From Posidoniimonas polymericola (GTDB lineage Bacteria; Planctomycetota; Planctomycetia; Pirellulales; Lacipirellulaceae), in the NCBI RefSeq assembly GCF_007859935.1, contig NZ_SJPO01000007.1, positions 310,001 through 374,000 of the forward strand: a DNA stretch of 64,000 nucleotides, written 5' to 3'. Below are positions 45,686 to 61,530 of this stretch, piece after piece; the first letter of the stretch is position 1, and every line of letters starts with the position of its first letter. The position numbers were made by a program, and so were the translations under genes. The notes beneath the pieces were generated by a model. The model was not told the DNA's origin. It worked only from the letters and a program-made list of their open reading frames with translations, and did not search any database.

Positions 45686-48600
45686 TTACCGGGAGAGCTC
45701 GTATTGCAGGGTGTCTTTGCTCGGCCGGTGCTGCGTGAGCGCCCCGTCCGGCCAACGGACTTCAATGCCCTCGATGCGGCCGGTCTTTCCCAGGCCAAAA
45801 TAGAGCACGGCCGGCTGCTGGGAGAGGTAACCGCCGCCGGCAGAAATCTCTGCTGTCTGCGTCCAGCCATCCGAGCGACGCACGGTCACCATGGATCCGA
45901 CGCCAGTCGAGTTTCCGGGCGGGCCCTTCAAGCGAACCGACGCCAAGCGGACGTCTTTCGGCGGTTGGTTCTCGAAAGCCAAGCCTTCACCGCTGTTCAC
46001 CGCAACGACAAGGTCGGGCCAGTTGTCCCCGCTGAAGTCGGTGGCCACAACCGCCTTCGCGTCGACTGGAGCGACCAGTCCACTTGCCGCCGGCGGCGCC
46101 GAGGTAAGCGTCCCGGCTCGATCCCCCATCAGAAGGAGCGACAGGCCTCCATCCCAGCGCCCGATCTCGCGTCTTGGTGCGAATGAATTCTGCGCGAGGT
46201 AGCAGTCGGCATAACCGTCTCCGTTGAAGTCACTGAGCACCACCCCAGTACTGGGGGCAACCTGGGCTGGCGTCGGCAGATCTTCAATAACAAATCGGCC
46301 TCGCCCGTCGTTGCGGAGCAAAACACTCCGTGAGGTGTTTGCTTCGACTTTAATCGCTTTGGCCATTTCGTCTTCCCCTAGCATCTCAGTGAGCGACGCC
46401 TCGGCGTACTCGCTAAATGTTGGGTAGGCGGCCTCGATAAACGGGACAGCGCGTTCCAGCACCGGTTTGCTGCGGGTCGGGACCAATTTGCCGCCGTTGG
46501 CGTGCACGCCTTCCACGGCAAGCATCGAGCCGTCGCCATTGAAGTCGCCATAGAAGAGGCACGCGGGGCGTTCGGGCGTCGGCTGGTATTCCGTGTTGGC
46601 TCCCAAATTCGTGACGACGTAGTCGATGTCGCGATCTCCGTCGAGGTCGCGGCCGGCGACTGCATTCCACCAGCCTTTTAGGTTGGCTAGTCCGGACTCC
46701 GCCGTTGCGTCCCGCAGCTGTCCCTTCTCGTTGATGTGCACCTTGATGGGACCCCACTCGTGAGTCACCAGCAGATCGATCCAGCCATCTCCGTTGACGT
46801 CGGTCCACAAGCCGCATGTTACGAGCCCGGACTTGAGCAGCTGTGGCGCAGCGCTAGCGGTAGCGTCAGTGAACCGGCCTCCTTCGTTTCGGAGCAGCCG
46901 ACTATTGGGGGTGGTCGGGTGACTGCCAGGGACGCATCGGCCGCCAACGAACAGGTCGAGGTCACCGTCTTGGTCGAAATCGGCGGCCGCGATTGCCGCA
47001 TTGCTGTCCCGAAGATCGGGCAGGGTTCCTTCGGGCGCTGGCGTAAATCCACCGGACCCGTCATTTAAATACAACGCGTCGACGTAGGACGCGGCTTCTG
47101 CTTCAGATTCGACGCCCCCGCTCACGATGTAGAGGTCGTTGTCGTTGTCGCCGTCCGCGTCGAAGATCAACGCATTGAGGCCCTCTCTAGCACCCTCGGG
47201 GTCCGACCAGACGGGGAAGAGTCCGCCTTCGGCCGCCCACTCGCCCTGCTTTTTGTTGAGCAAAACGGACCCGGCTATGCCGCGGCAGCCGCCCAGAAAA
47301 AGGTCGTCGAGGCCATTCCCGCTGATGTCGCCGCAGGCAAGGCAAGGGCCCAGTCGCGACAGCCTAGTGGGGAGCAAGGGTTGGCTCTCAAAGTCGTCGA
47401 ACTCGCTCTCCAGGTGGAGCAGTCCAGGCACAGCGGTCGACTTGACAAACATGGTTGGATGAGCCGCGGGCTTCTCGGGCCTGTTGGGCACGCCGGACGG
47501 CTCTTGGATTGTCAGCAGCTGGTTGGGTTGAACGCTCGCAAAGGTCTGAGTGTGCCCGCTCGGCCATTCGACGCTGAGTTCGTCGACTAGCTTTGCGGTC
47601 CCCAAACCAAAGTGGATGGTCGGGTCGCTTGACGACATAAACCCGCGCGCGAGCGACAGCCGTCTCGCCATCTCGACCTCTCCGCACTTCAGACGCACGA
47701 CGGCGCCGATTCCAGACCGGTTGCTGGCTTGGCCCTCGAACTTGATCCGCAGGGCGCCGCCCTCCTGCCCGTCGTTCCGGCAGACGGTGACCATTTCGTT
47801 GAAGTTGTTCACGACGAGATCAAGGTCGCCGTCGTTGTCGAGGTCGCCGAACGCCGCGCCGAAACCAACGCCCACTTGGTCGAGGCCCCATTCGGATTCG
47901 ACGCGGCGGAAACGCAGTCCGCCCAGGTTCTGGAAGGCCAAGTTCTTTTCTTTGAGTGTGTCCTGGCGGTCCCAGAAGTCGTTGTAGGCGTCGGAGTTCA
48001 TCGGCCCCATTTTCATGGCCGACATCTTTAGGTCGCTGTTGCCCCAGTCGCGGCTCATCCCGTTGGTAAAGTGCACGTCCACGTTGCCGTCCTGGTCGAG
48101 GTCGACCATCCGCACCGACCATGTCCAGTTGGTGCTCACCATCCCGGTTAGATACGCCACCTCGAGCATGCGGTCGCACCCAGCGTTGAGGAAGACCGCG
48201 TTCCGCATGTACTGACGCGGGGTCGGTGACTCGAGGAACCAGCCGTCGTCCTGAATGTCGCCCATGGTCGTCTTCGCACGCTGGTGCGTGTCGGAAGACA
48301 TGTCGGTGCCGATCAGGTCGAACAATCCGTCGTTGTTCAGGTCGCCTGAGTCGCACCCCATCGAGAACCAAGGTGTGTGAGGCAGCACGTTTGCGGCCGT
48401 ATCCGTGAAGGTGCCGTCGTGGTTGTTGCGGTACAAACGGTCGGGGCCGTAGAAGTCGTTCGCAACATAGATGTCGGGCCAGCGGTCGTTGTCGTAGTCC
48501 CACCAGACAACCCCGAGCCCCTTGTGGTTGCCATCGATGCCGGCCTGTTCAGATACGTCCGTGAAGCCCTGCTCGCCGTCGTTCCGGTAGAGCCGGTCGA

Positions 48601-49375
48601 ACTGCCCCGACTCGACTATCCCGTAGCCGCCGTCGGGGAAGCGGATGGTGTCGTGGTACTGACGATACCGATCGGGCACGTGAGGGACTCCACGGCGGTC
48701 GTACTTCACGCGGTACTCCACTTCCCGGTCCGGCGGGATGTGGTTGGTTAGCAGAAAAAGATCGAGGTCGCCGTCGCGGTCGTAATCTTCAAAGGCCGCC
48801 ATCGCACTCGACCCGCTGTAGGCGAGTCCGTATCCCGCGGCGTCCTCGGTAAATCTGCCAGCCCCGTCGTTGATGTAGAGCGCATTGGGGCAATCGAACC
48901 CGCAAACGTAGAGGTCCAGATCGCCGTCGTTGTCGATGTCGACGAACGTCGCGCCGGTGGTCCACAGATCACCCGTCGTGAGGATGCCGGCTTCAACCGT
49001 AACATCCTGAAACCGGAAGGCACCCAGGTTCCTGTAGAGCCGCCCGCCGTCGGTGGATCTCGGGAGGAAAACGTCCACCAAGCCGTCACCGTCGTAATCC
49101 GCCATGGCCACGCCGCACCCGGTCGTGTTGTTACGGAGTTGGCCGGAACGCCGGCTCCATTTGTGAAAGAAATCGATCCCGATGGCTTTCGGATCCAGTG
49201 AAGTGAACAGCGTAGTGTTCGCACCTGTGCTACGCACGGCGAGTGGGCCCGCGGCAAGCGACTCTCTATCGCCGTCAGCGGCCGATGCGAAGGATCCAGT
49301 CAGTGCAACTGCGAGTGCAACCGCGGGCAGCCAGCTCTTCCGAAAACAATGCATGACAAAGCGACGAGCGGTCAT
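45686..49375 (-). CDS. Large secreted FG-GAP/ASPIC-UnbV (CRTAC1-type) protein
   Basis: About 1229 residues from the ATG at 49375, with AGGAG 9 bases upstream and a following signal peptide ('SWLPAVALAVALTGSFASA'). It contains two consecutive CRTAC1-type units: VCBS blades such as 'DYDGDGLVDVFLP', 'DIDNDGDLDLYVCG' and 'DYDRDGDLDLFLL', a first ASPIC/UnbV domain near 560-640 ('LRIKFEGQASNRSGIGAVV', 'LSVEWPSGHTQ'), then a second propeller and a final ASPIC/UnbV domain ('RLKGPPGNSTGVGSMV', 'IEVRWPDGALTQ') at the C-terminus. Predicted to be in the envelope or secreted, binding calcium; no catalytic residues. A start at 49423 is possible. It is similar in plan to the protein at 17725 but without TPR repeats. 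Confidence 0.85.
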   Translation of the reverse strand: MTARRFVMHCFRKSWLPAVALAVALTGSFASAADGDRESLAAGPLAVRSTGANTTLFTSLDPKAIGIDFFHKWSRRSGQLRNNTTGCGVAMADYDGDGLVDVFLPRSTDGGRLYRNLGAFRFQDVTVEAGILTTGDLWTTGATFVDIDNDGDLDLYVCGFDCPNALYINDGAGRFTEDAAGYGLAYSGSSAMAAFEDYDRDGDLDLFLLTNHIPPDREVEYRVKYDRRGVPHVPDRYRQYHDTIRFPDGGYGIVESGQFDRLYRNDGEQGFTDVSEQAGIDGNHKGLGVVWWDYDNDRWPDIYVANDFYGPDRLYRNNHDGTFTDTAANVLPHTPWFSMGCDSGDLNNDGLFDLIGTDMSSDTHQRAKTTMGDIQDDGWFLESPTPRQYMRNAVFLNAGCDRMLEVAYLTGMVSTNWTWSVRMVDLDQDGNVDVHFTNGMSRDWGNSDLKMSAMKMGPMNSDAYNDFWDRQDTLKEKNLAFQNLGGLRFRRVESEWGLDQVGVGFGAAFGDLDNDGDLDLVVNNFNEMVTVCRNDGQEGGALRIKFEGQASNRSGIGAVVRLKCGEVEMARRLSLARGFMSSSDPTIHFGLGTAKLVDELSVEWPSGHTQTFASVQPNQLLTIQEPSGVPNRPEKPAAHPTMFVKSTAVPGLLHLESEFDDFESQPLLPTRLSRLGPCLACGDISGNGLDDLFLGGCRGIAGSVLLNKKQGEWAAEGGLFPVWSDPEGAREGLNALIFDADGDNDNDLYIVSGGVESEAEAASYVDALYLNDGSGGFTPAPEGTLPDLRDSNAAIAAADFDQDGDLDLFVGGRCVPGSHPTTPNSRLLRNEGGRFTDATASAAPQLLKSGLVTCGLWTDVNGDGWIDLLVTHEWGPIKVHINEKGQLRDATAESGLANLKGWWNAVAGRDLDGDRDIDYVVTNLGANTEYQPTPERPACLFYGDFNGDGSMLAVEGVHANGGKLVPTRSKPVLERAVPFIEAAYPTFSEYAEASLTEMLGEDEMAKAIKVEANTSRSVLLRNDGRGRFVIEDLPTPAQVAPSTGVVLSDFNGDGYADCYLAQNSFAPRREIGRWDGGLSLLLMGDRAGTLTSAPPAASGLVAPVDAKAVVATDFSGDNWPDLVVAVNSGEGLAFENQPPKDVRLASVRLKGPPGNSTGVGSMVTVRRSDGWTQTAEISAGGGYLSQQPAVLYFGLGKTGRIEGIEVRWPDGALTQHRPSKDTLQYELSR

Positions 49376-49725
49376 CAGGCGTAGCTCCTGGGTTGTCGGG
49401 TTTTCGATCATTCGTTCGCCCATTGGTCCATCCAGCGCCCGGCGACAGGCGAGTCCTCTCTCGCCTACTTTACACCACTAGGCCTCGCTATTTTGAGCAA
49501 AGACGGCCGGTCGCCAGACTCGCCACTCGCGGTGCGCACTCCCGCCGTATGCCCCAATGTTCCTCTATTCGAGTCGCGTTCGGCGGCTTTCGGAAGGTGA
49601 TAGAAACTTGCTCGCGCCCCGCGACCTCAGGTGACAAGGAGTGATTCAGTCACGGCACTCAACAGCAGATGAGGCCAGCGAAGCTCGGAGTCATTCCGTG
49701 GTTCTGTGTGAGGATTCCTTGTGAA

Positions 49726-49784: not shown

Positions 49785-49904
49785 GCACGCAATGTCACGT
49801 TTTGGCGGGCGTTGACGAGTTGATCTCACCTTCAGGTCGGCATCCTTGATTACCCGCTGGGCGACGGCATGCCTCATCGATTAGTACCCCGGAGACTGCA
49901 TACC

Positions 49905-52900
49905 ATGTGGCGCCGATTTGCCGTGTTGGGTCTTGTTTACGGAGGATGCCTAGGCGCCGTGGTTCAGGCGCAGGTGCTGGAACTCGGGCTCGACGGCGTC
50001 GCTTGGGAAACGCCAAACGACACGGGTCCGCTGCTCTACAAGGAGGTAGCCGAGTCGGATCTCGTTTCCGTTAAGGCGAAGATCTCTAGTCAGACCTCCG
50101 GCTTCTGGTCTCAAGCCGGCGTTATCGCCCGGCTGCCTAACCCCGTCGATCAGGCGGCCGCCCAAGAGAATTGGCAGGCGGCCTGGAGCTTCCGACCTCT
50201 GGAAGAAGGCACGTGGGACCTGCAGCACAATATGGCTAGCGCCGGTATTGAAACCGAGGTGGGGCAAACCGGACTCGACAGTGCTGACCTTACTTACGTC
50301 CGGCTCGACAACCTCGGTTCGGGCGAATTCCAGGCGTTCTTTGGTAGTGGCACGGACGATTCCATTAGTTGGACCGCGCTGGCAGGGACCCAGACTAACG
50401 CCAGTCTGATCGGTCAGACGCTGCAGGTGGGGGTGGCCGGCGGGGCCATCGGAGCACTCCCCGAAGCGGTTGCGCTGTTCGACTGGGTTGAGATTGAGAC
50501 CACCGGCGATACGTTCCGTGATGACTTCGACTACACACGCGACTTCGTCGCCGACGGCCTTCCCAGCCCTGGGATCTGGGATGGCTTGCTAAACGGTTCA
50601 GCAGGTGGAGTCAATGTTCAGACCGGCGACATCGGGCAGTGCGTGGTCTGCAACTGGAACGTCAATGGGTCGGGCGACTTTGCCAACGCTGCCAACTGGC
50701 TAGACGACCTGGGCGCCGCCATTCGATTCGCGCCGAACCGGAGCGCTTCGCAGGTCGTCTTCGGCGAAGTCGCCGCGGCGGGTCCGGCGGTTGTCTTCGT
50801 AAACAAGGACATGACCGTCGAACAGCTGACATTCGACAACACGTCGAACAGCTACGTGCTGGGCGGCGGTGGTTCCATTTCTTTCGACTCGGAGGGCGTC
50901 GCGGGTGCGATCAATGTCCTCGCCGGAACTCACCAGATTCAGGTTGATCTCGCACTGTTGACCGATGTGACGGCGACCGCCGCGGCGGGAGCGTCCCTCG
51001 ACATCAACGCCCTGGTCTCACTAAACGGCAACACGCTGACCGTAACCGGCGACGGCGTAATCAATCTAAACAACGGCGTCGTTCTGGTGGACGGAGGCGG
51101 GATCGTCAACAGCGGGGCGATCGCCGGGCTCACGGCGGCAGACGGAGACTACTCACAGACCAGTGAGGGCAGCCTGCTCTACACTTTGGGCAAGAGCAGC
51201 GAGATCGGGATTGCAGGCGTGGCCGAATTGGGCGGGGCCCTCGAACTCTCTCTCGCCGAAGGGTTCTTCGCGACCCCCGGAGCGACCTACACCCTGCTGA
51301 CCGCCGACAGCGTCGTTGACAACGGCCTTGTTCTGTCCGGGGATGGCGCGGGCCAGTTCGACCTCATGGTCAACGGCACGTCCGTCTCGGTCGTTGCTAT
51401 GTCAATCCCAGAGCCCGCGGGCCTTGTCTTGTCGATTGGTGCTTTCTTGGCCGTGTGCTGCGTTTACCGGTGTCGCCTTGGCCGGCCTGCATTTGCGTCG
51501 GCCCGGGTGGCGAGTTTGTTCGCTGTCACGATGGTCCTCGCGACCTCGTCGGTCTTAGCGGATACGCTGACGCTCGGCCCAATGGACCAGGACGCAACCT
51601 ACCGCGACGACTTCAACTCTACCTTCGACTACTTCACCGCCAATGGTGGAGTTCCAACAGGTACATTCGCCTCATCTCTCGGGGGCACAGCGTCCTGGAC
51701 CGCAACTCACAACGCGCAGTTCGGCACCGATGGAAGTTTCCCGTCGGCGTTCGTTGCTAACGGCGTTGACGGTATGGGCGATCCTAAGCCGGGCCTTCTA
51801 GTCATTGAAGACCTTGCGTTCCACGTTAACACAGACGAAGCACTAGGCGTCGGTTTCGAGGGAAATAAGAACAACGCGCCCATGCTGTTCGCCAATGTCG
51901 ACGCGGGCGACAACTTCGAGGCAACCATCAAGATCGAACAGCAGACCTCTGGTTTCTGGTCCTACTCGCCGATTGTTGCACGCCTTTCGGGACCCCCTGT
52001 GGGCCTTGGGACCGGTGACACACTCGACCCAACGGAGGCATTCATCACCGCCGGAAACTTCCGCACGACGGCAGATGACCCGCTGACCGAGGATGTGGAC
52101 GAATCGCTGAACATGGCAACCCTTGTCCAGAATGTCGGTGATCTCAACGGCGACGGAAACTTGCAAGAAGAGGAGGGGCAGGCCGCCTTCACGCTCGATG
52201 AGTTCCCGTTGTATCTCAAGCTCACAAAGAGGGCGGCCCAGTTTACCACGAGCACGTCGACTGACGGCGTGACTTTTACCGACCAAGTTGCGGTCATCAA
52301 TCCGCTGCTTAACAGCCCTGGCAGCCTGCTGGAAATAGGCCCCTCATTTATGATGTTCCAGGGTGGGGAGTTCGGGCAGACGGAACTCGACTTCTTCGAG
52401 ATCACAGTGCAGAAGCAGCAGCGGTTCACCGACGCGACCTGGTCGCCCGCCGGCGCCACCGCCAACGGCAACTGGAATAGTGGCGGCAACTGGTCTTCGC
52501 TCACGGCCCCGGGACAGGTCCCCGACGCCAATTCGGTAAACGTGGTGCTTGGGGGAGCCAATGCAGGCGCCGGAGCTGTGACAGTCTACAACAATGCGGA
52601 TGTCGCGATCCGCTCTTTGGCCTTCACCAGCGCTGACACCTACGCAATTTCTGGACTCGGCAGCATCACGCTTGAGCCGGACGCCCTGTCCGACACGGAC
52701 ACCGACGCCACGTTTATCAGCGTTGAGGCAGGCGCCCATGAGATCCAGGTGCCAGTTGTGCTGAGCTCGTCGGCGGCCAGCGACAACCGAGTGCTTGTTG
52801 TGCCCGGATCAACGCTCGACTTCGACAACCAGCTCGACCTTAATGGGAAAACGCTGTCGGTCGAGGGTGGTGGCGTTGTGAACGTCAACAATAATATCGA

Positions 52901-53633
52901 CACCGGGACCACCGGCGAGTTAATCGTGAGCGGAGCCGTGCTGGGCGGCAGTGGACGCGTCAACGGCGACGTTGGCAGCACCGGCGGCGCCGTCGCTCCG
53001 GGGCAGGGGGTCGGCACGCTGACCGTCGACGGCGACTACACCCAGGACGGGGCCGCCTCGCTGTTCATCGAGCTAGCGGGAGAGTCCGTCGGGCAGTTTG
53101 ACGTCCTCGACGTGCTCGGTGCGGCGATCCTGGACGGCGTACTGAATATCGAATACGCAAACGGCTACCTGCCAACCGCCGCGGACATCGGCGCCACTTG
53201 GGAGGTGCTAACAGCGGGTTCTGTGAACAACGCCGCTGGCATCGAGCTCGACAGCAGTGACGCTTCGTTCTACTCGTTGAGCGCAACGGCGAGTTCGCTG
53301 ATCCTCACGCTCACGGCGGAGCCCGTGCTCGGACTGGTAGGCGACTACAACGACGATGGTGTCGTCGACGCCGCCGACTACACCGTCTACCGCGACGCGG
53401 CTGGTTCGGCAACCTCTCTGCCCAACCGCGGTCCCGGTCTAAGCGGTGTGGTTGGTGTTGGAGACTACACAGCGTGGCAGACCAACTACGGTGCGACCAC
53501 CGCTCCAGGGAGTGGGGTCGAGGCGGTCCCCGAACCGATTGGGGCGGCAGTCGTAGCGATGCTTGCACTATCCGCTGCGTGTGCAACGTCGAGCAGCAGG
53601 CAACGCTTTGGCCGGCGAACGGGTGTCGAGTGA
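49905..53633 (+). CDS. Two tandem PEP-CTERM proteins fused in one frame
   Basis: 1242 residues from the ATG at 49905 (GGAG upstream; 49869 is an alternative). A signal peptide ('FAVLGLVYGGCLGAVVQA') starts a first unit with a lectin-like module ('QTSGFWSQAGVIARL', near residue 63) and an autotransporter-like beta-strand region. It ends with a PEP-CTERM anchor: PEP at 502-504, a hydrophobic helix and basic residues ('VYRCRLGR'). Directly after, residues 535-552 form a second signal-peptide-like segment ending in 'SSVLA'. A second unit repeats the plan ('QTSGFWSYSPIVARL', near 680), adds a dockerin-like pair near 1146 and ends in another PEP motif at 1209. A GTG at 51507 could in principle start a separate second protein. 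Function unknown; surface protein. Confidence 0.82.
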   Translation: MWRRFAVLGLVYGGCLGAVVQAQVLELGLDGVAWETPNDTGPLLYKEVAESDLVSVKAKISSQTSGFWSQAGVIARLPNPVDQAAAQENWQAAWSFRPLEEGTWDLQHNMASAGIETEVGQTGLDSADLTYVRLDNLGSGEFQAFFGSGTDDSISWTALAGTQTNASLIGQTLQVGVAGGAIGALPEAVALFDWVEIETTGDTFRDDFDYTRDFVADGLPSPGIWDGLLNGSAGGVNVQTGDIGQCVVCNWNVNGSGDFANAANWLDDLGAAIRFAPNRSASQVVFGEVAAAGPAVVFVNKDMTVEQLTFDNTSNSYVLGGGGSISFDSEGVAGAINVLAGTHQIQVDLALLTDVTATAAAGASLDINALVSLNGNTLTVTGDGVINLNNGVVLVDGGGIVNSGAIAGLTAADGDYSQTSEGSLLYTLGKSSEIGIAGVAELGGALELSLAEGFFATPGATYTLLTADSVVDNGLVLSGDGAGQFDLMVNGTSVSVVAMSIPEPAGLVLSIGAFLAVCCVYRCRLGRPAFASARVASLFAVTMVLATSSVLADTLTLGPMDQDATYRDDFNSTFDYFTANGGVPTGTFASSLGGTASWTATHNAQFGTDGSFPSAFVANGVDGMGDPKPGLLVIEDLAFHVNTDEALGVGFEGNKNNAPMLFANVDAGDNFEATIKIEQQTSGFWSYSPIVARLSGPPVGLGTGDTLDPTEAFITAGNFRTTADDPLTEDVDESLNMATLVQNVGDLNGDGNLQEEEGQAAFTLDEFPLYLKLTKRAAQFTTSTSTDGVTFTDQVAVINPLLNSPGSLLEIGPSFMMFQGGEFGQTELDFFEITVQKQQRFTDATWSPAGATANGNWNSGGNWSSLTAPGQVPDANSVNVVLGGANAGAGAVTVYNNADVAIRSLAFTSADTYAISGLGSITLEPDALSDTDTDATFISVEAGAHEIQVPVVLSSSAASDNRVLVVPGSTLDFDNQLDLNGKTLSVEGGGVVNVNNNIDTGTTGELIVSGAVLGGSGRVNGDVGSTGGAVAPGQGVGTLTVDGDYTQDGAASLFIELAGESVGQFDVLDVLGAAILDGVLNIEYANGYLPTAADIGATWEVLTAGSVNNAAGIELDSSDASFYSLSATASSLILTLTAEPVLGLVGDYNDDGVVDAADYTVYRDAAGSATSLPNRGPGLSGVVGVGDYTAWQTNYGATTAPGSGVEAVPEPIGAAVVAMLALSAACATSSSRQRFGRRTGVE

Positions 53634-53728: not shown

Positions 53729-56077
53729 GTGTCTTTTCCCCGCGTTGACCATCTGTTCAAGCCTCTTTTGGTCTCGGCGGTTTTAGTTTGTGTGGCGCCT
53801 GTCGTGGCTGATGCACAGGGGGTAGGGGCAGAGCGAGTCGCGGAGTTTGGCTTTTCGAACTTCGCAAGCGAAGGCGTGACCGGGATCAGCTCCGCGCCCG
53901 GGAGGCCGAACGATCTCTTCGTCAGCGTGCTCGACGGTCGCATTTTGCGGGTCGACCTGACCGACCAGTCGGTGAGCACATTCGCGACCATCCCGAACGT
54001 TTACACCAGTTTCGGTTTCACCGGCCTTCTCGGGTTCACGTTCGCGCCCGACTACCCGACCAGCGGACGACTTTTCGTCCACACAGCTGACGATCCTTCG
54101 CCGACGGCCGGGGTCGACCACCGGACCTACGTCCGGCAGTACACCGTTTCAGACCCGTTGTCCGCGACTCCTGCGCTTGGGGGCGGCGTCGACATCCTGC
54201 GGGTCGACCAGCCGCTCAACGATCACAACGGCGGATTCCTGGGCTTCAAACCGGGCGACGACAATAATCTGTGGATTGGCTTGGGCGACGGCGGCAACAA
54301 TGGCGCCAACCCAGATCCCCTGCGGACGGGACAGGACAACACTGACCTGCTCGGGTCAATTCTTCGCGTCGACGTGACCCGCGACGACTTTCCTGCCGAT
54401 CCTCTCCGCAGCTACGGAATCCCGGCAGACAACCCTTACGCGGTGAGTGGCGGCGCGCCGGAGGTTTGGAGCTACGGGCTGCGTTCGCCCTGGGGGGCGA
54501 GCTTCGACCGGGACAACGGCGACTTCTACTTCGGCGATGTGGGCCAGGTCACTCGGGAAGAGGTCAACTTTGAGCGGTCCGACGCGGCCGGCGGCGCCAA
54601 CTATGGTTGGCGGGTCAACGAGGGCGACGCCCCAGCGCCCTTCACGCAGCACCCAGGCGACCCTTCTCCGGACGATCCGTCCCTGGTCAGTCCGGTGTAC
54701 GACTACGTCCACACCGGGGGCTACGGCGGCGGCAACTCACAGCCCTTTACCGGCCGTTCGATTACGGGTGGCGTCGTCTACCGCGGCCCAATCGAAGAGC
54801 TGCAAGGCGCGTACGTTTTTGGGGATTGGTCGAGCCGGCAGGTGTGGGCCATGCAGATCGACCGCGACGCCAACAGCGGGCGGGGAGCGGTTGTTCCCGG
54901 GTCGCAAATAAACCTTGCCGAGACCTTCGGCCGCTCAGCCGTCTACGGAGACGCAGGCGGGTTTGGCGACGGGGTGACGGCTTTCGGTGAGGACTTGGCT
55001 GGCAACGTGTACTTTGCTGAGCTGGACGGGGACCTCTACAAGATCTGCGCAGATTGCGGGCCCGGCTTGCCCAACCCCGACCCGCCGCCGGACGGCCCGC
55101 GGGGCCCGCTGGAGCCGCTCGCCCCATTGTCGGATTCATTTGACGCCTCGCACGATTACAAGAGCGGGGCAGTCGACCCGGCCGGTATCTGGACCGGCAC
55201 ACACAACGCCGGTTTTGGCGGTCCGTTCGATTCGAACGCGTCGAACGCCGGCGAGCTGACGGTAGGGATGGAGCCGCTCGGTTGGGAGGGCGGCGGCGCC
55301 GATACCGCGCCGTTCTTATTCCGAGAAGTCAACGCTGCAGACCTGATGGAAGTCCGAGTGCGGATCTCCAACCAAACACGAGGGAACTGGTCCTCGGCAG
55401 GCATCCTGGTGCGACTGGCAGGGGCTGTTGATGACGACGCGTCGAACGATCAGTTCCTGTCGGCCCACTCCTTCCGCGTGGGCAGCGAGAGTGATCCCGG
55501 CGACAACCTTCAAACGTCCAACGTTATCGAGGGCGGCGAAGGCGAGACGACGCAGCCAGTCGGCCACGATCTGGAGTACATCAGGCTCGTGCACAATGGG
55601 GGCGGGGACTTCGACGTTTTCACCTCCGAAGACGGCAGCGACTGGACCCTGCGGGATGAGCTCTCTAACCCGAATCTGGCGGAAGGGGTTCTCGAGGTCG
55701 GCCTCTGGGCAGGCTCTTACGGCGGTGGTTTTGAAGGGGGTGAGGCCTTGTTCGATTGGGCCGAGATCGTTCTAGGTGTGCCGGCCGGAGATTATAATGA
55801 AGACGGGCGGATCGACGCCGCCGACTACGTTGTCTGGCGCGATTCCGAGGGAACCTCGGTAGCGGCTTGGTCCGGAGCCGATGGCAACGGCGACGGGCTC
55901 GTCACGATGGCCGACTACGACGTCTGGCGCACCAATTACGGCGCTGTCGTCGTCGACCCCTTTGAGGCGCCCACCGTCGAGGATATCCCCGAGCACCACT
56001 CGGCAACGCTGGTGGCAATCGCGATGATCTTCTTAGTTGGGATTAGGCGGCTATCACCGCCGTTTCTTCTCCGCTGA
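53729..56077 (+). CDS. Secreted PQQ-type sugar dehydrogenase with dockerin-like tail
   Basis: 782 residues, GTG start. A signal peptide ('PLLVSAVLVCVAPVVADA') precedes a six-bladed propeller of the soluble glucose/sorbosone dehydrogenase family (about 35-430): 'GLLGFTFAPDYPTSGRLFVH', 'DHNGGFLGFKPGDDNNLWIG' and 'YGLRSPWGASFDRDNGDFYFGDVGQ' (split here by a few residues) hold the conserved His, Asp and Arg region of the PQQ site. A lectin-like module (about 450-680, 'ISNQTRGNWSSAGILVRL') resembles those of the upstream PEP-CTERM protein. A dockerin-like pair ('DYNEDGRIDAADYVVWRD') and a final hydrophobic helix with Arg residues act as a sorting tail. It would oxidise sugars or sugar acids outside the cell; cofactor and substrate are inferred. 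Confidence 0.82.
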   Translation: MSFPRVDHLFKPLLVSAVLVCVAPVVADAQGVGAERVAEFGFSNFASEGVTGISSAPGRPNDLFVSVLDGRILRVDLTDQSVSTFATIPNVYTSFGFTGLLGFTFAPDYPTSGRLFVHTADDPSPTAGVDHRTYVRQYTVSDPLSATPALGGGVDILRVDQPLNDHNGGFLGFKPGDDNNLWIGLGDGGNNGANPDPLRTGQDNTDLLGSILRVDVTRDDFPADPLRSYGIPADNPYAVSGGAPEVWSYGLRSPWGASFDRDNGDFYFGDVGQVTREEVNFERSDAAGGANYGWRVNEGDAPAPFTQHPGDPSPDDPSLVSPVYDYVHTGGYGGGNSQPFTGRSITGGVVYRGPIEELQGAYVFGDWSSRQVWAMQIDRDANSGRGAVVPGSQINLAETFGRSAVYGDAGGFGDGVTAFGEDLAGNVYFAELDGDLYKICADCGPGLPNPDPPPDGPRGPLEPLAPLSDSFDASHDYKSGAVDPAGIWTGTHNAGFGGPFDSNASNAGELTVGMEPLGWEGGGADTAPFLFREVNAADLMEVRVRISNQTRGNWSSAGILVRLAGAVDDDASNDQFLSAHSFRVGSESDPGDNLQTSNVIEGGEGETTQPVGHDLEYIRLVHNGGGDFDVFTSEDGSDWTLRDELSNPNLAEGVLEVGLWAGSYGGGFEGGEALFDWAEIVLGVPAGDYNEDGRIDAADYVVWRDSEGTSVAAWSGADGNGDGLVTMADYDVWRTNYGAVVVDPFEAPTVEDIPEHHSATLVAIAMIFLVGIRRLSPPFLLR

Positions 56078-56566: not shown

Positions 56567-56740
56567 CGTGGCTTGGGCTCGACAAGATCCTCACCGACTC
56601 GCCAGATAGGCGGCTGCGCCGTTCAGTGGCGACTTGAAGGGATCGCTTGGACTGTCTCGCGCGGTGCAGCGCGCAACGCCGTCGCTCCCCCAGGCCTTCA
56701 TCGCAGGCTTGTGCGTCACGATGGTCAGACCAGGAGAATA

Positions 56741-59659
56741 ATGGTGGCTAAGTCGTCTCCCCAGGAGGGCATGCAGCCCGTCCGAAAGAAGCCGTACGTA
56801 CGTTCAGTCAGTGGCCGTATGCGAGTGCTTCTCTACTTTATCTTCGGCCTAGTCGCCGTGCTGGCGGCCAATTCCGCCTACCTATCTTCGGTAACGGCAA
56901 TGGAGTGGTTTACCGGCGAGACCTACCAAGACTACTTCTATCAGTACATGTTCCTGGCTCATTTGGTCATGGGGCTCGTGCTTATCACGCCGTTCTTGAT
57001 ATTTGGCGTCCGGCACATGCTCGCCGCGAAAGACCGGAAGAACCGCCGCGCGGTCCGGATTGGCTACGCATTGTTCGGCGTTTGTGTCGCCGTACTGGTG
57101 AGTGGGCTGCTGTTGATGCGTCTGGGGGGATTCGACCTTCGTGACCCGTCCGCCCGTCAAACGATCTATTGGATGCACGTGGCGTGTCCGCTGGTAGCGG
57201 GCTGGCTCTATTGGCTCCACCGACTGGCGGGCCCACGAATCAAATGGAGGATCGGCGGCGCCTACCTTGGCGCGGTGGCCACGGCGGTTCTTGCTATGCT
57301 CTGGCTGCAGGCCCAGGACCCGCGTGAGTGGCACGCCCTGGGACCCGAATCCGGCGTGAAGTACTTCGAGCCGTCGCTGGCCCGAACCTCGACCGGGGAC
57401 TTTATCCCGGCCGAGAATCTGATGAACGACGAGTACTGCAAGACCTGCCACGCCGACGTACACGCCCAGTGGTCCGACAGCGTGCACCGCTTCAGCTCGT
57501 TCAACAACCCCCCCTACCTGGCGAGCGTCACGGAGACGCGGAAGGTCTCGATGGAGCGGGATCAGTCGGTGCAGGCCTCTCGGTGGTGCGCCGGATGCCA
57601 CGACCCGGTGCCATTCTTCAGCGGGGCATTCGACGACCCGAATTTTGACGCATTGAAGCACCCCACCTCTCAGGCCGGCATCACATGCACCGTGTGCCAC
57701 GCCATAACGAATGTCAACAGCAACCGCGGAAACGCCGACTACACCATCGAGTCTCCGCTGCACTACCCGTTTGCTTCAAGTGAGAACCGCGCGCTGCAGT
57801 GGGTCAACCAGCAGCTAATCAAGGCGAAGCCAGCGTTTCACAAGAAGACCTTCCTGAAGGACTTCCACTCCACCGCGGAGTTCTGCTCGACCTGCCACAA
57901 GGTGCACCTGCCAGGCGAGCTGACAAAGTACAAGGAATTCCTCCGCGGCCAGAACCACTACGACCCGTACCTGCTGAGCGGCGTATCGGGGCACGGCATC
58001 CGCAGCTTCTACTACCCGCCAAAGGCGCAGCCCAACTGCAACAACTGCCACATGCCGGCCCAGCCGTCGGACGATTTCGGCGCAAAGCAGATCGCAGGCG
58101 CCGACGGGCTGAACGTGCACAACCACCTCTTCCCATCGGCAAACACCGGAATCGCCTGGCTGCGCGACAAGCCGGACATTGTGCGGGCTCACCAGGATTT
58201 TCTGGACGGCGTAATGCGGGTCGACATCTTCGGTGTCCGAGAGGGTGGCGAGATTGATGGACAGCTCACGGCGCCCATCCGCCCGGCGGCTCCGGTCCTG
58301 GTTCCTGGAAACCGCTACCTCGTGGAAGCCGTCATCCGCACACTGAAGATGGGGCACCTATTCACGCAGGGCACGGTCGACTCTAACGAGATCTGGCTCG
58401 ACGTGGTCGTCAAGTCGGGCGACCGGATCATCGGCCGCAGCGGCGCCATGAACCCGGACCTTGGCAATGAAGTGGACCCGTGGTCGCACTTCGTGAACGT
58501 TTTCGTCATCGACAAGGACGGCAACCGAATTGACCGCCGAAACGCGCAGGATATCTTCACTCCGCTCTACAACAATCAGATCCCGCCCGGCGCAGGTCAG
58601 ACCGTGCACTACGAATTGGAAGTCCCCAGCGGTGTGAGCGAGCAGCTGGTCGTGGAAGTGAAGCTGATGTACCGTAAATTCGACCAGCGCTACATGGACT
58701 TTGTCGCCCGCTCAAACGAAGAACTGGGCGCGAACATCCGCGGACACGAGCCTGGCAAGCCCTACGTCAACAACCTGCCGGTCACGGTGCTCGCCTCGGA
58801 CAGCGTGGTTTTCGCTGTCGACGATGCGGAAGAGCCGCCTGAGAATGGTGATCGCGACATACCTACCTGGCAGCGATGGAACGATTACGGCATCGGTCTG
58901 CTGCTCAAGGGCAGGGCCGAGCTCCGGCAGGCGGAAGAGGCGTTTAAGCACGTGGAGGAACTCAACCGCTGGGACGGCCCGATGAATCTCGCGCGGGTCT
59001 ACACCGCAGAAGGACGGCTCGATGACGCGGTTGCCGCGTTACAAAGGGCGGACGCTTTCCGCGACGCCGAAGGCTTCCCTCGTTGGACCTGGGCTTGGCA
59101 GAGCGGCGCCGTGAACCGCCAGCAGGGACGCCTCGTCGAAGCGATTCAAAACCTCCGCAGCGCCCTGGAAGACAGCACGGCTGTAATGCAGCAGCGACAG
59201 TTCGACTTCAGTCTTGATTACGAAGTCATCAATCTCCTGGGGCAGACTCAGTTTGACCTGGGCCGGCTCCGAGCCCGACAGGGTCGGACGGACGAAGCTC
59301 ACGAGGCCTGGACCGAAGCAGTGGCGACCTTCCAGAGAACCCTCGCGATAGATTCCGAAAACTTTACTGCCCACCACAACCTCCAGCTCTTGCACGCAGA
59401 GCTTGGCGAGCCAGAGAAGGCGGCGGAGCACGCCGGTCTGCACCTGAGGTACAAGATGGACGACAACGCCAAGGGCCGGGCCGAGCGACTCGCACGCGAG
59501 AAGTACCCCGCGGCCAACCACGCTGCGGAAGCAGTCGTTAAGTATTCCTTAAGCCGAGACGGCGCCCCGGGGCTCGCCCAGACGGACGCCAACGCCGAAA
59601 GCGCAAAAGAATCGGATCAGATTGCACTCGAAGACGCGCCCGCGGGAGGTGGACAATGA
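56741..59659 (+). CDS. Membrane-bound pentaheme c-type cytochrome with TPR repeats
   Basis: 972 residues from the ATG at 56741, which has AGGAG 4 bases upstream; the open frame begins 56 codons earlier without a signal. About five N-terminal transmembrane helices (about 27-190) are followed by a periplasmic domain with five CxxCH heme motifs at about 233 (CKTCH), 283 (CAGCH), 316 (CTVCH), 382 (CSTCH) and 433 (CNNCH), a beta-rich domain (about 500-680), and TPR repeats (about 720-910). Multiheme cytochromes of this plan occur in planctomycetes next to FG-GAP/ASPIC proteins. Electron transfer in the periplasm or cell surface is likely; partners are unknown. Its stop overlaps the next start (ATGA), so the two proteins are made together. 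Confidence 0.85.
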   Translation: MVAKSSPQEGMQPVRKKPYVRSVSGRMRVLLYFIFGLVAVLAANSAYLSSVTAMEWFTGETYQDYFYQYMFLAHLVMGLVLITPFLIFGVRHMLAAKDRKNRRAVRIGYALFGVCVAVLVSGLLLMRLGGFDLRDPSARQTIYWMHVACPLVAGWLYWLHRLAGPRIKWRIGGAYLGAVATAVLAMLWLQAQDPREWHALGPESGVKYFEPSLARTSTGDFIPAENLMNDEYCKTCHADVHAQWSDSVHRFSSFNNPPYLASVTETRKVSMERDQSVQASRWCAGCHDPVPFFSGAFDDPNFDALKHPTSQAGITCTVCHAITNVNSNRGNADYTIESPLHYPFASSENRALQWVNQQLIKAKPAFHKKTFLKDFHSTAEFCSTCHKVHLPGELTKYKEFLRGQNHYDPYLLSGVSGHGIRSFYYPPKAQPNCNNCHMPAQPSDDFGAKQIAGADGLNVHNHLFPSANTGIAWLRDKPDIVRAHQDFLDGVMRVDIFGVREGGEIDGQLTAPIRPAAPVLVPGNRYLVEAVIRTLKMGHLFTQGTVDSNEIWLDVVVKSGDRIIGRSGAMNPDLGNEVDPWSHFVNVFVIDKDGNRIDRRNAQDIFTPLYNNQIPPGAGQTVHYELEVPSGVSEQLVVEVKLMYRKFDQRYMDFVARSNEELGANIRGHEPGKPYVNNLPVTVLASDSVVFAVDDAEEPPENGDRDIPTWQRWNDYGIGLLLKGRAELRQAEEAFKHVEELNRWDGPMNLARVYTAEGRLDDAVAALQRADAFRDAEGFPRWTWAWQSGAVNRQQGRLVEAIQNLRSALEDSTAVMQQRQFDFSLDYEVINLLGQTQFDLGRLRARQGRTDEAHEAWTEAVATFQRTLAIDSENFTAHHNLQLLHAELGEPEKAAEHAGLHLRYKMDDNAKGRAERLAREKYPAANHAAEAVVKYSLSRDGAPGLAQTDANAESAKESDQIALEDAPAGGGQ

Positions 59660-61530
59660 AGTCACAGCATGAGTTGGACCCCGGAGCCCCCTCGGAGGCG
59701 GACGAGCAGAGCGATGCGGCTATCGCCGTGGCGCTCAAGCGTTCGCTCCTGGTGTTGAGTGTCGCGGCCGCGGCCGTCTTGGTGGCGGTTTTCCTCGGCA
59801 ACCGTACGGAGCCGGTTGTCGTGACCGAGAGTGAGCTCTCGACGGTCGAGGTGCGCGAAGCCCCGATGGTGGATCCACCGTCGGTCAGATTCACGGACAT
59901 TTCCGGTCAGCTTGGTCAAGGATTCGTCCACCGTAACGCGGCAGAGGGCGATAAGCTTCTGCCCGAGACTATGGGCGGAGGGTGCGCCTTCCTAGACTTT
60001 GACAATGATGGCGATCAGGACCTACTGCTGGTGAACAGCCTCAGCCACTGGCCATGGGACGACGCCCCGCAGGCTGAACCATCGGCGGGGGGGGCGCTGT
60101 TCGCGAATGATGGCGCCGGCCGCTTCTCCGACGTGACAGCGGGGTCGGGCCTCGAACAGCCGCTGTACGGGATGGGCGTCGCCGTTGGAGACTACGACAA
60201 CGACGGTTTGGTCGACGTTTTTCTCAGCGCCGTTGGCCGCGACCGTTTGCTGCACAACGAAGGCGGCGGAAAATTCCGCGACGTTACCGACGAGGCTGGC
60301 GTTAGCGGCGGCGGCCGCGACTGGGGCACCGGTTGCGGTTGGTGCGACTACGACAACGACGGCGACCTCGACCTGTTCGTCTGCAACTACCTGAACTGGA
60401 GTCGTGAATTCGATGCGGCGCAGGACTTCCAGCTCGTTGGCGGCGGACGCGCGTACGGCCGTCCCCAGAACTTTGAGGGCGTTTTCCCGTTCCTCTACCG
60501 CAACGACGGCGATGGGCGTTTTACCGAGGTAGCCGAATCTGCAGGCCTGCAAGTGCGCAACGCGGCAACCAATGTGCCGGTCGCGAAATCACTCGGGGTG
60601 ACCTTCGTCGACGCCGACGAGGACGGTTGGATCGACGTGATTGTCGCCAACGACACTGTGCAGAACTTCCTGTTCCACAACATGCAGGATGGGACCTTCC
60701 GTGAAGTGGCTATTGACGCGGGCATCGCGTTCGACATGAACGGCGCCGCCCGTGGCGCAATGGGCATCGACGTCGCGCGATTCCGCGACAACGGCGCCCT
60801 GGGCATCGCCATCGGGAACTTTTCCAACGAGATGACCGCTCTGTACGTTTCGTACAAGGGAGAGATGCAGTTTATGGACGAAGCGGTCTCAACCGGACTT
60901 GGCCCCAATTCGCGACTGGAGCTCAGTTTCGGGTTGTTCTTCTTTGACTGCGACCTGGACGGGCGGCTCGATATCTTCACCGCCAATGGGCACCTGGAAG
61001 AAGAGATCAACCGCGTGCAGCCGAGTCAGCACTACGAGCAGAGCCCCCATCTGTTCTGGAACTGCGGTGCGGAGCACGACACCGAGTTCGTCACAATCGG
61101 CGCATCCTCGGCAGGCGAAGATCTGCTCCGGCCGATGGTGGGGCGTGGTGCCGCGTTCGCAGACATCGACTCCGACGGCGATCTCGATCTCGTCATAACC
61201 GCCATCGGCGGCGCGGCGAGGCTAGTGCGTAACGACCAAGAACTCGAAAACGACTGGATCCGGTTCCGGTTAACCGGTTCCACGAGCAACCGCGACGCCA
61301 TCGGGGCCTGGATCCGTATCGATTTGGAGGATCGAACCATCGAACGGCAAGTGATGCCGACCCGCAGCTACCTCTCCCAGGTTGAACTCCCGGTAACCAT
61401 CGGCCTAGGTCGGGACGCCAAAGTGAAATCCATGTCTGTCCAGTGGCCCGATGGGGCGCCGCAGGTGGTTCCCTTCGACGGTGTCAACCAACTTTACGAC
61501 GTCCGGCAGCTTCCGGCTTCTGGCGGTTAG
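59656..61530 (+). CDS. Membrane-anchored FG-GAP/ASPIC-UnbV (CRTAC1-type) protein
   Basis: 624 residues. One transmembrane segment (about 30-48, 'SLLVLSVAAAAVLVAVFLG') anchors a CRTAC1-type propeller with calcium-type loops ('DFDNDGDQDLLLV', 'DYDNDGLVDVFLS', 'DYDNDGDLDLFVC', 'DADEDGWIDVIVA', 'DCDLDGRLDIFTA', 'DIDSDGDLDLVIT'), ending in an ASPIC/UnbV domain (about 530-610, 'DWIRFRLTGSTSNRDAIGA', 'MSVQWPDG'). It is clearly related to the first unit of the protein at 17725. The ATGA overlap with the pentaheme cytochrome gene indicates coupled translation and probably a complex at the membrane. Function beyond binding is unknown. Confidence 0.87.
   Translation: MKSQHELDPGAPSEADEQSDAAIAVALKRSLLVLSVAAAAVLVAVFLGNRTEPVVVTESELSTVEVREAPMVDPPSVRFTDISGQLGQGFVHRNAAEGDKLLPETMGGGCAFLDFDNDGDQDLLLVNSLSHWPWDDAPQAEPSAGGALFANDGAGRFSDVTAGSGLEQPLYGMGVAVGDYDNDGLVDVFLSAVGRDRLLHNEGGGKFRDVTDEAGVSGGGRDWGTGCGWCDYDNDGDLDLFVCNYLNWSREFDAAQDFQLVGGGRAYGRPQNFEGVFPFLYRNDGDGRFTEVAESAGLQVRNAATNVPVAKSLGVTFVDADEDGWIDVIVANDTVQNFLFHNMQDGTFREVAIDAGIAFDMNGAARGAMGIDVARFRDNGALGIAIGNFSNEMTALYVSYKGEMQFMDEAVSTGLGPNSRLELSFGLFFFDCDLDGRLDIFTANGHLEEEINRVQPSQHYEQSPHLFWNCGAEHDTEFVTIGASSAGEDLLRPMVGRGAAFADIDSDGDLDLVITAIGGAARLVRNDQELENDWIRFRLTGSTSNRDAIGAWIRIDLEDRTIERQVMPTRSYLSQVELPVTIGLGRDAKVKSMSVQWPDGAPQVVPFDGVNQLYDVRQLPASGG

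Follow-up and report, generated by a model that had tools for sequence, protein, structure and literature searches.

The window, the whole stretch of 64,000 nucleotides of Posidoniimonas polymericola DNA that was analysed, contains a gene that encodes two homologous units in one open frame, each unit ending in a PEP-CTERM tail (Table 1). The frame is free of stop codons up to its own stop codon at positions 53631-53633 and is also open from position 49869. The start at 49905 was preferred over 49869 because of the GGAG core upstream of it and because identity with the orthologue of a sister species begins at MWRRFAV.

Table 1. Features of the two-unit gene, with positions counted from the first nucleotide of the window.
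Feature	Position	Strand	Basis or remark
Two-unit open frame	49905..53633	+	1242 codons plus stop; GGAG core 10 nt upstream; 79%-identical sister orthologue
N-terminal signal peptide, residues 1-22, V-Q-A end before Q23	49905..49970	+	By eye; hydropathy
Unit 1, residues 23-501: beta-sandwich, disordered stretch, beta-helix-like part	49971..51407	+	dN/dS; AlphaFold2 model
Internal PEP-CTERM tail, residues 502-530	51408..51494	+	Pattern; kept in kind in sister
Internal signal peptide, about residues 531-552, V-L-A before D553	51495..51560	+	Rule-based
GTG at V535, candidate second start of the preliminary description	51507..51509	+	Without Shine-Dalgarno core; CTG in sister
Unit 2, residues 553-1207, homologous to unit 1	51561..53525	+	BLASTP, profile-profile
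C-terminal PEP-CTERM tail, residues 1208-1242	53526..53630	+	Sequence pattern

Both tails fit, by pattern, the order of P-E-P, hydrophobic helix and basic end. In the internal tail the PEP motif forms residues 502-504, after which come a hydrophobic stretch and then R-C-R-L-G-R. This tail sits about 720 residues before the end of the protein, and the second tail lies near the C-terminus. Both are atypical for PEP-CTERM, as neither matches TIGR02595, and no NCBIfam model matched either of them at E<=10 in a search whose program filters drop most matches above about 0.1. The whole protein gave nothing above cut-off against Pfam and NCBIfam. Each unit would be an ordinary PEP-CTERM substrate once cut. 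The full-length product is no ordinary member of that group, because a complete tail is also present mid-chain.

The preliminary description of this DNA had proposed an in-frame fusion of two related PEP-CTERM proteins, and the comparison of the units within this single frame bears that out: units 1 and 2 are homologous by BLASTP (28% identity, E 5e-19) and by profile-profile comparison (E 2.8e-44). The AlphaFold2 model of unit 1 has a mean pLDDT of 67.6 and that of unit 2 a mean of 60.1, with model residues 1-287 below 50. The unit 1 model had no match in the PDB at E<=1e-3, the best being a lectin domain at 3.2e-3, and the unit 2 model had one match, an autotransporter passenger (E 2.9e-4, TM-scores 0.18 and 0.19). 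These low-to-moderate-confidence models suggest that unit 1 may consist of a lectin-like sandwich and a beta-helix and that unit 2 may be a beta-helix. A dockerin-like stretch occurs in unit 2 near residues 1146-1163, where Dockerin_1 has an E value of 0.67 and stays below cut-off.

Comparison with the sister species

The preliminary description had called for a comparison with orthologues, and the orthologue of a sister species in the same genus is fused as well. It is a single open frame with no stop and is 79% identical over residues 1-1235. Overall dN/dS between the two genes is 0.083 at dS 1.69, with values of 0.063 for unit 1 (residues 24-500) and 0.07 for unit 2. The segments between and beside the units are more variable in sequence. 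For example, joint residues 501-552 are 27% identical and contain an in-frame gap of five codons, the C-terminal tail is 40% identical, and the N-terminal signal peptide (residues 1-23) is 65% identical. Tail and signal-peptide segments conserve composition, not sequence. In place of the window's joint the sister has an unlike but textbook tail and signal peptide: its joint reads VPEPATLLMTLAGIAGFCGISRRRR, and the signal peptide that follows ends in S-P-A-M-A at the matching place. Scored against TIGR02595 (cut-off 16), the sister's internal tail reaches 30.0 bits and its C-terminal tail 12.9.

Internal tails across the family and order

Relatives of the window protein and long tail-bearing frames of the P. 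polymericola genome repeatedly showed this layout when read. After removal of duplicates, 52 distinct frames remained, 44 with two tails and eight with three, and they hold 60 internal tails. A tally of the locus table places these frames in 18 of the 43 Lacipirellulaceae genomes and in two other genomes of the order. A signal peptide lies within 50 residues after 59 of the 60 internal tails, as called by a simple in-house rule and not by a trained predictor; the same rule applied at random positions of the same proteins was satisfied in 297 of 11,538 cases (2.6%). The one internal tail for which the rule fails, in L268, is followed by a stretch that resembles a signal peptide by eye. A fairer figure than 59 of 60 comes from loci L001-L082, which were found without the junction profile, because many of the other loci came from a profile that itself contains the signal peptide. 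These loci include 18 multi-tail frames with 20 internal tails, and a signal peptide comes after every one of the 20. The mid-chain sorting signal with a second signal peptide behind it that had been described at residues 502-530 and about 531-552 of the window protein is upheld there and recurs elsewhere. A passage in Haft et al. (2006, PMC1569441) places PEP-CTERM near the C-terminus "virtually without exception." The preliminary description took the tails to be strictly C-terminal, which holds as the rule in the literature but is broken repeatedly in Lacipirellulaceae.

The junction profile (A1) was built from 18 joints. In the P. polymericola genome it found 11 full stop-free joints at 41-60 bits. 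Its matches at or below 33 bits were mostly tail-only, and they include two stop-free joints (C1:158048 and C2:373232) as well as longer matches that contain stops. In the family it gave 40 matches, 39 of them stop-free, in 15 of 43 genomes and 10 of 14 genera. Eighteen of the 40 were training joints. The other 22 include a match in G015 that spans a TAG and was rejected as an ordinary terminal tail with a chance continuation past its stop. Of the remaining 21 non-training matches 20 were read, and all 20 consist of a tail and a signal peptide; a C-terminal tail was detected in 19 of these and three tails in four. In one set of 48 joints, one (L210) proved to be a chance antisense match.

Across the order, the profile matched 46 times in 21 of 396 genomes. 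The matches in G616 and G734 were tail-only and were excluded. Those outside the family were otherwise in G431, G433, G452 and G456, and the joints of the first three were read. A sample of the phylum yielded matches in two of 391 genomes, and these two belong to the family. In both the order and the phylum search only 16-17 candidates per genome were scored, and the profile at the threshold used overlooks real joints (those in G041 and G011 are examples), so the observed spread is a lower bound. Of 30 genomes of the order, 20 contain strong PEP-CTERM tails.

The two largest contigs of the P. polymericola genome (29% of the genome) were tiled with the sequence pattern, which gave 107 terminal tails and three joints, and the profile adds a fourth. 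The pattern had 13 internal hits on these contigs, of which three were kept and ten were dropped by eye; nine of the ten look like chance. The tenth, at C1:629457, looks like a genuine tail; it lies 81 residues before the stop and has no signal peptide after it. It stands outside the 60 because that count requires a second, terminal tail. The pattern counts are lower bounds because the pattern missed a real joint, C2:373232, that the profile finds. Multi-tail frames are a minority form, but they are real.

Fusions of this kind are also kept between genera. One two-unit protein can be aligned over its whole length among five genomes, which represent four genera; the other sequences are 43-64% identical to the first, and this orthologue set is fused in all five. 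A contig of Aeoliella straminimaris carries a two-unit orthologue. When the second unit of L144 was searched in the 43 family genomes, all 16 near-full-length matches, from nine genomes, lay in frames of 909-1116 amino acids, and none was a single gene (near-full-length meaning a match that starts by query residue 62, with the query's own gene counted). Joints were read in 13 of these 16 frames, and each of the 13 has a tail and a signal peptide. A partial relative of this second unit (G007:C18, query residues 126-405) occurs in a frame of 332 amino acids.

Proposed processing of the joints and alternative explanations

The gene probably encodes an export polyprotein that would be cut at each joint by an exosortase and a signal peptidase, a reading to which we give a probability of about 75%. 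The N-terminal signal peptide would begin Sec export of unit 1, and the helix of the internal PEP-CTERM tail would halt transfer with its Arg-rich end in the cytosol. The positive loop would then double as the n-region of the second signal peptide and restart export for unit 2. At the PEP motif the exosortase would cut behind unit 1, and signal peptidase would cut ahead of unit 2. A short hairpin of helices would be left over, and the two surface proteins, each sorted on its own, would be produced 1:1 from a single message. The loop between the two helices is positive in 60 of 60 joints, at +2 to +8. Because of this charge, the positive-inside rule would put the loop in the cytosol, with the anchor running out-to-in and the restart signal in-to-out. 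The P. polymericola genome has three exosortase genes (three PF09721 matches over cut-off), and the internal tail at C1:856359 is the second-best TIGR02595 match among 150 scored in that genome. From the exosortase genes and this high-scoring internal tail we infer cleavage by exosortase and signal peptidase.

An uncut protein that spans the membrane twice, its permanent transmembrane hairpin tethering two outward-facing units to the inner membrane, is unlikely, though several points favour it. First, it would have the same topology, with two helices and a positive loop. Secondly, it does without the cleavage that we infer at the joints. Third, the two tails of the window protein match no NCBIfam tail model. 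However, predicted cut sites flank each joint, a P-E-P before the first helix and an A-X-A-like end after the second, the genome encodes three exosortases, and an internal tail can reach scores like those of terminal tails.

It is quite improbable that the fusion is only apparent and that two separate proteins are made, the second from an internal start such as the GTG at 51507, which the preliminary description had offered as a second route. In its favour, the joint of the window has a GTG and that of the sister an ATG, and 45 of 59 joints contain some ATG, GTG or TTG: an ATG in 12 and only GTG or TTG in 33. However, the other 14 have none of these codons, and any start codon with a Shine-Dalgarno core was found in only five of the 59. 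An ATG with such a core was present in one of 61 joints (a set that includes a few fragments of one gene) versus 13 of the 23 N-terminal signal peptides that the rule detected. For random internal codons, a Shine-Dalgarno-like stretch preceded 63 of 1100. The GTG of the window itself has no Shine-Dalgarno core and is not conserved; the sister has CTG at that position, and its ATG lies four codons further on. In addition, no stop ends unit 1, so its ribosomes would read on. As a main route, then, the second protein from 51507 was not supported.

The unfused neighbours of the genome provide a further comparison. For ten of the 107 terminal tails a stretch resembling a signal peptide follows in the same frame, although one of these cases looks like chance, and such same-frame unfused neighbours have a stop, a leader and an ATG between them. 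Most joints are without this whole stretch. Since start signals are scarce at the joints and the unfused neighbours are unlike the joints, the chain is most likely synthesized as a single polypeptide. The first joint of L070 and the joints of L146 and L155 retain an ATG and resemble recent loss of a stop.

An accidental fusion, in which the internal tail has decayed and is non-functional, is very unlikely. It would agree with the idea, also put forward by Haft et al. (2006, PMC1569441), that the few PEP-CTERM sequences away from the C-terminus may be non-functional. It would also agree with the atypical tail of the window protein and with the three joints that still carry an ATG. The preliminary description had likewise considered loss of the stop and start between duplicated genes, and this may fit those three joints (L070 first joint, L146 and L155) but not most others. 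Against such an accident, the sister's internal tail passes TIGR02595, fused orthologues extend over four genera, all 16 near-full-length matches to the L144 second unit are fused, and 59 of 60 internal tails have a signal peptide behind them. Lastly, a sequencing or assembly artefact, which the preliminary description had raised as an error hiding a stop, is scarcely credible, as nothing was found in its favour, the sister genome shares the stop-free frame, and the layout occurs in about 50 other frames from many separate assemblies, including the Aeoliella straminimaris contig; the case is strong because of this recurrence and not because of the missing stop in a single joint, which counts for little, since 50 random codons with the same base composition are stop-free about 47% of the time.

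Related systems and the contents of other frames

The polyprotein reading can be set beside several known systems. The substrates of the PEP-CTERM/exosortase system (TIGR02595, PF07589) likewise have a signal peptide, P-E-P, a hydrophobic helix and a basic end, with exosortases in the genome. They differ from the frames described here, in which the complete signal stands mid-chain, with a second signal peptide and then a second substrate behind it. The myxosortase paper (PMC11980579) contains a description of MXAN_5598 of Myxococcus xanthus, which has an internal MYXO-CTERM, arose perhaps by gene fusion and is proposed to be processed. According to the same paper, which cites Navarre 1994 and Abdul Halim 2017, tags of this type function in the middle of a protein. 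MXAN_5598 thus shares with the frames described here an internal tripartite sorting signal that is thought to be fusion-derived and is proposed to be processed. As far as that description goes, it is one protein, its protease is unrelated, and its second part is an outer-membrane barrel with OmpA domains. Here there are about 50 frames, with PEP-CTERM at every joint.

The 2017 work of Abdul Halim reportedly concerns a substrate of archaeosortase ArtA with the tripartite structure away from the C terminus. In that substrate, too, an enzyme of the exosortase/archaeosortase kind is said to process an internal signal, but it is an archaeal Tat substrate, and we know of no second signal peptide in it. 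FbcH of Bradyrhizobium, the cytochrome b/c1 precursor, is a single bacterial chain cut at an internal signal peptide; it differs in having no sorting enzyme or removable anchor at its joint and in being one protein. A literature search of open-licence papers found no report of PEP-CTERM polyproteins, nor any paper on FbcH. The known internal precedents (MXAN_5598 and the ArtA substrate) are single cases.

These frames matter for several reasons. By definition and in annotation PEP-CTERM tails are C-terminal signals, and it has been suggested that internal ones may lack a function. If the polyprotein reading is true, exosortase would be able to act mid-chain, and the frames would provide natural tandem substrates for exosortase tests. 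It would also represent a bacterial polyprotein strategy for surface proteins, somewhat like that of enveloped viruses, and several apparent "large surface proteins" in these bacteria would be two or three proteins each. A broader form of the reading also seems likely, namely that the family systematically makes surface polyproteins. In these, two or three exosortase substrates would be linked by hairpin joints, each an anchor and a restart signal, that two membrane proteases would cut. Surface proteins would then arise in fixed ratios, and one chain could deliver different enzymes or even a prepilin.

The units of the other multi-tail frames are of surface or secreted types (LamG, dockerin-like and beta-helix). 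For example, L073 couples a PelN-like with a PelZ-like pectate lyase, both of which score far below the models' equivalog cut-offs. In L075 a PEP tail at 17.2 bits, below the Pfam cut-off of 20.7, is followed by a DUF1559 prepilin, which matches PF07596 at 162.7 bits and PF07963 at 26.2 bits, both above cut-off. Judged from these matches, the predicted export signal that occupies the signal-peptide position after the internal tail of L075 is a different one, a prepilin leader.

Other composite frames in the P. polymericola genome

Two further frames carry an internal tail. In one, an internal tail and a signal peptide link a PelN-like to a PelZ-like pectate lyase, which suggests that complementary enzymes would be delivered together. 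In the other, a complete DUF1559 prepilin, including its N-methylation signal, follows a PEP-CTERM-like tail in frame, and the predicted chain combines two different sorting systems.

Tail-bearing frames elsewhere in the order

Locus L290, in a genome from a different family within the order, encodes three tandem units with tails, which are closely similar to one another and are separated by two joints, both compact. These units look like a recent duplication within a putative polyprotein. In another genome of the order (G322), a strong PEP-CTERM match was found in several open frames with lengths of 4,632-12,608 aa.

Genes surrounding the window protein

One stretch of the next gene's product aligns with residues 21-197 of the window protein at 39% identity. 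This product also has a dockerin-like part, and its tail is degenerate, with P-E-H in place of P-E-P.

Features in the window and at loci L073 and L075
Feature	Position	Strand	Remark
FG-GAP/ASPIC-UnbV protein	window 45686-49423	-	one of two flanking the region
Glucose/sorbosone dehydrogenase domain gene	window 53729-56077	+	next after the window protein gene; PF07995, 85.8 bits
Multihaem cytochrome plus TPR protein	window 56573-59659		between both FG-GAP/ASPIC-UnbV proteins
FG-GAP/ASPIC-UnbV protein	window 59656-61530	+	other of the two flanking the region
PelN-like and PelZ-like pectate lyase, one frame	L073:3756-8219	-	own genome, contig C2
PEP-CTERM-like tail and DUF1559 prepilin, one frame	L075:2267-4930	-	own genome, contig C15
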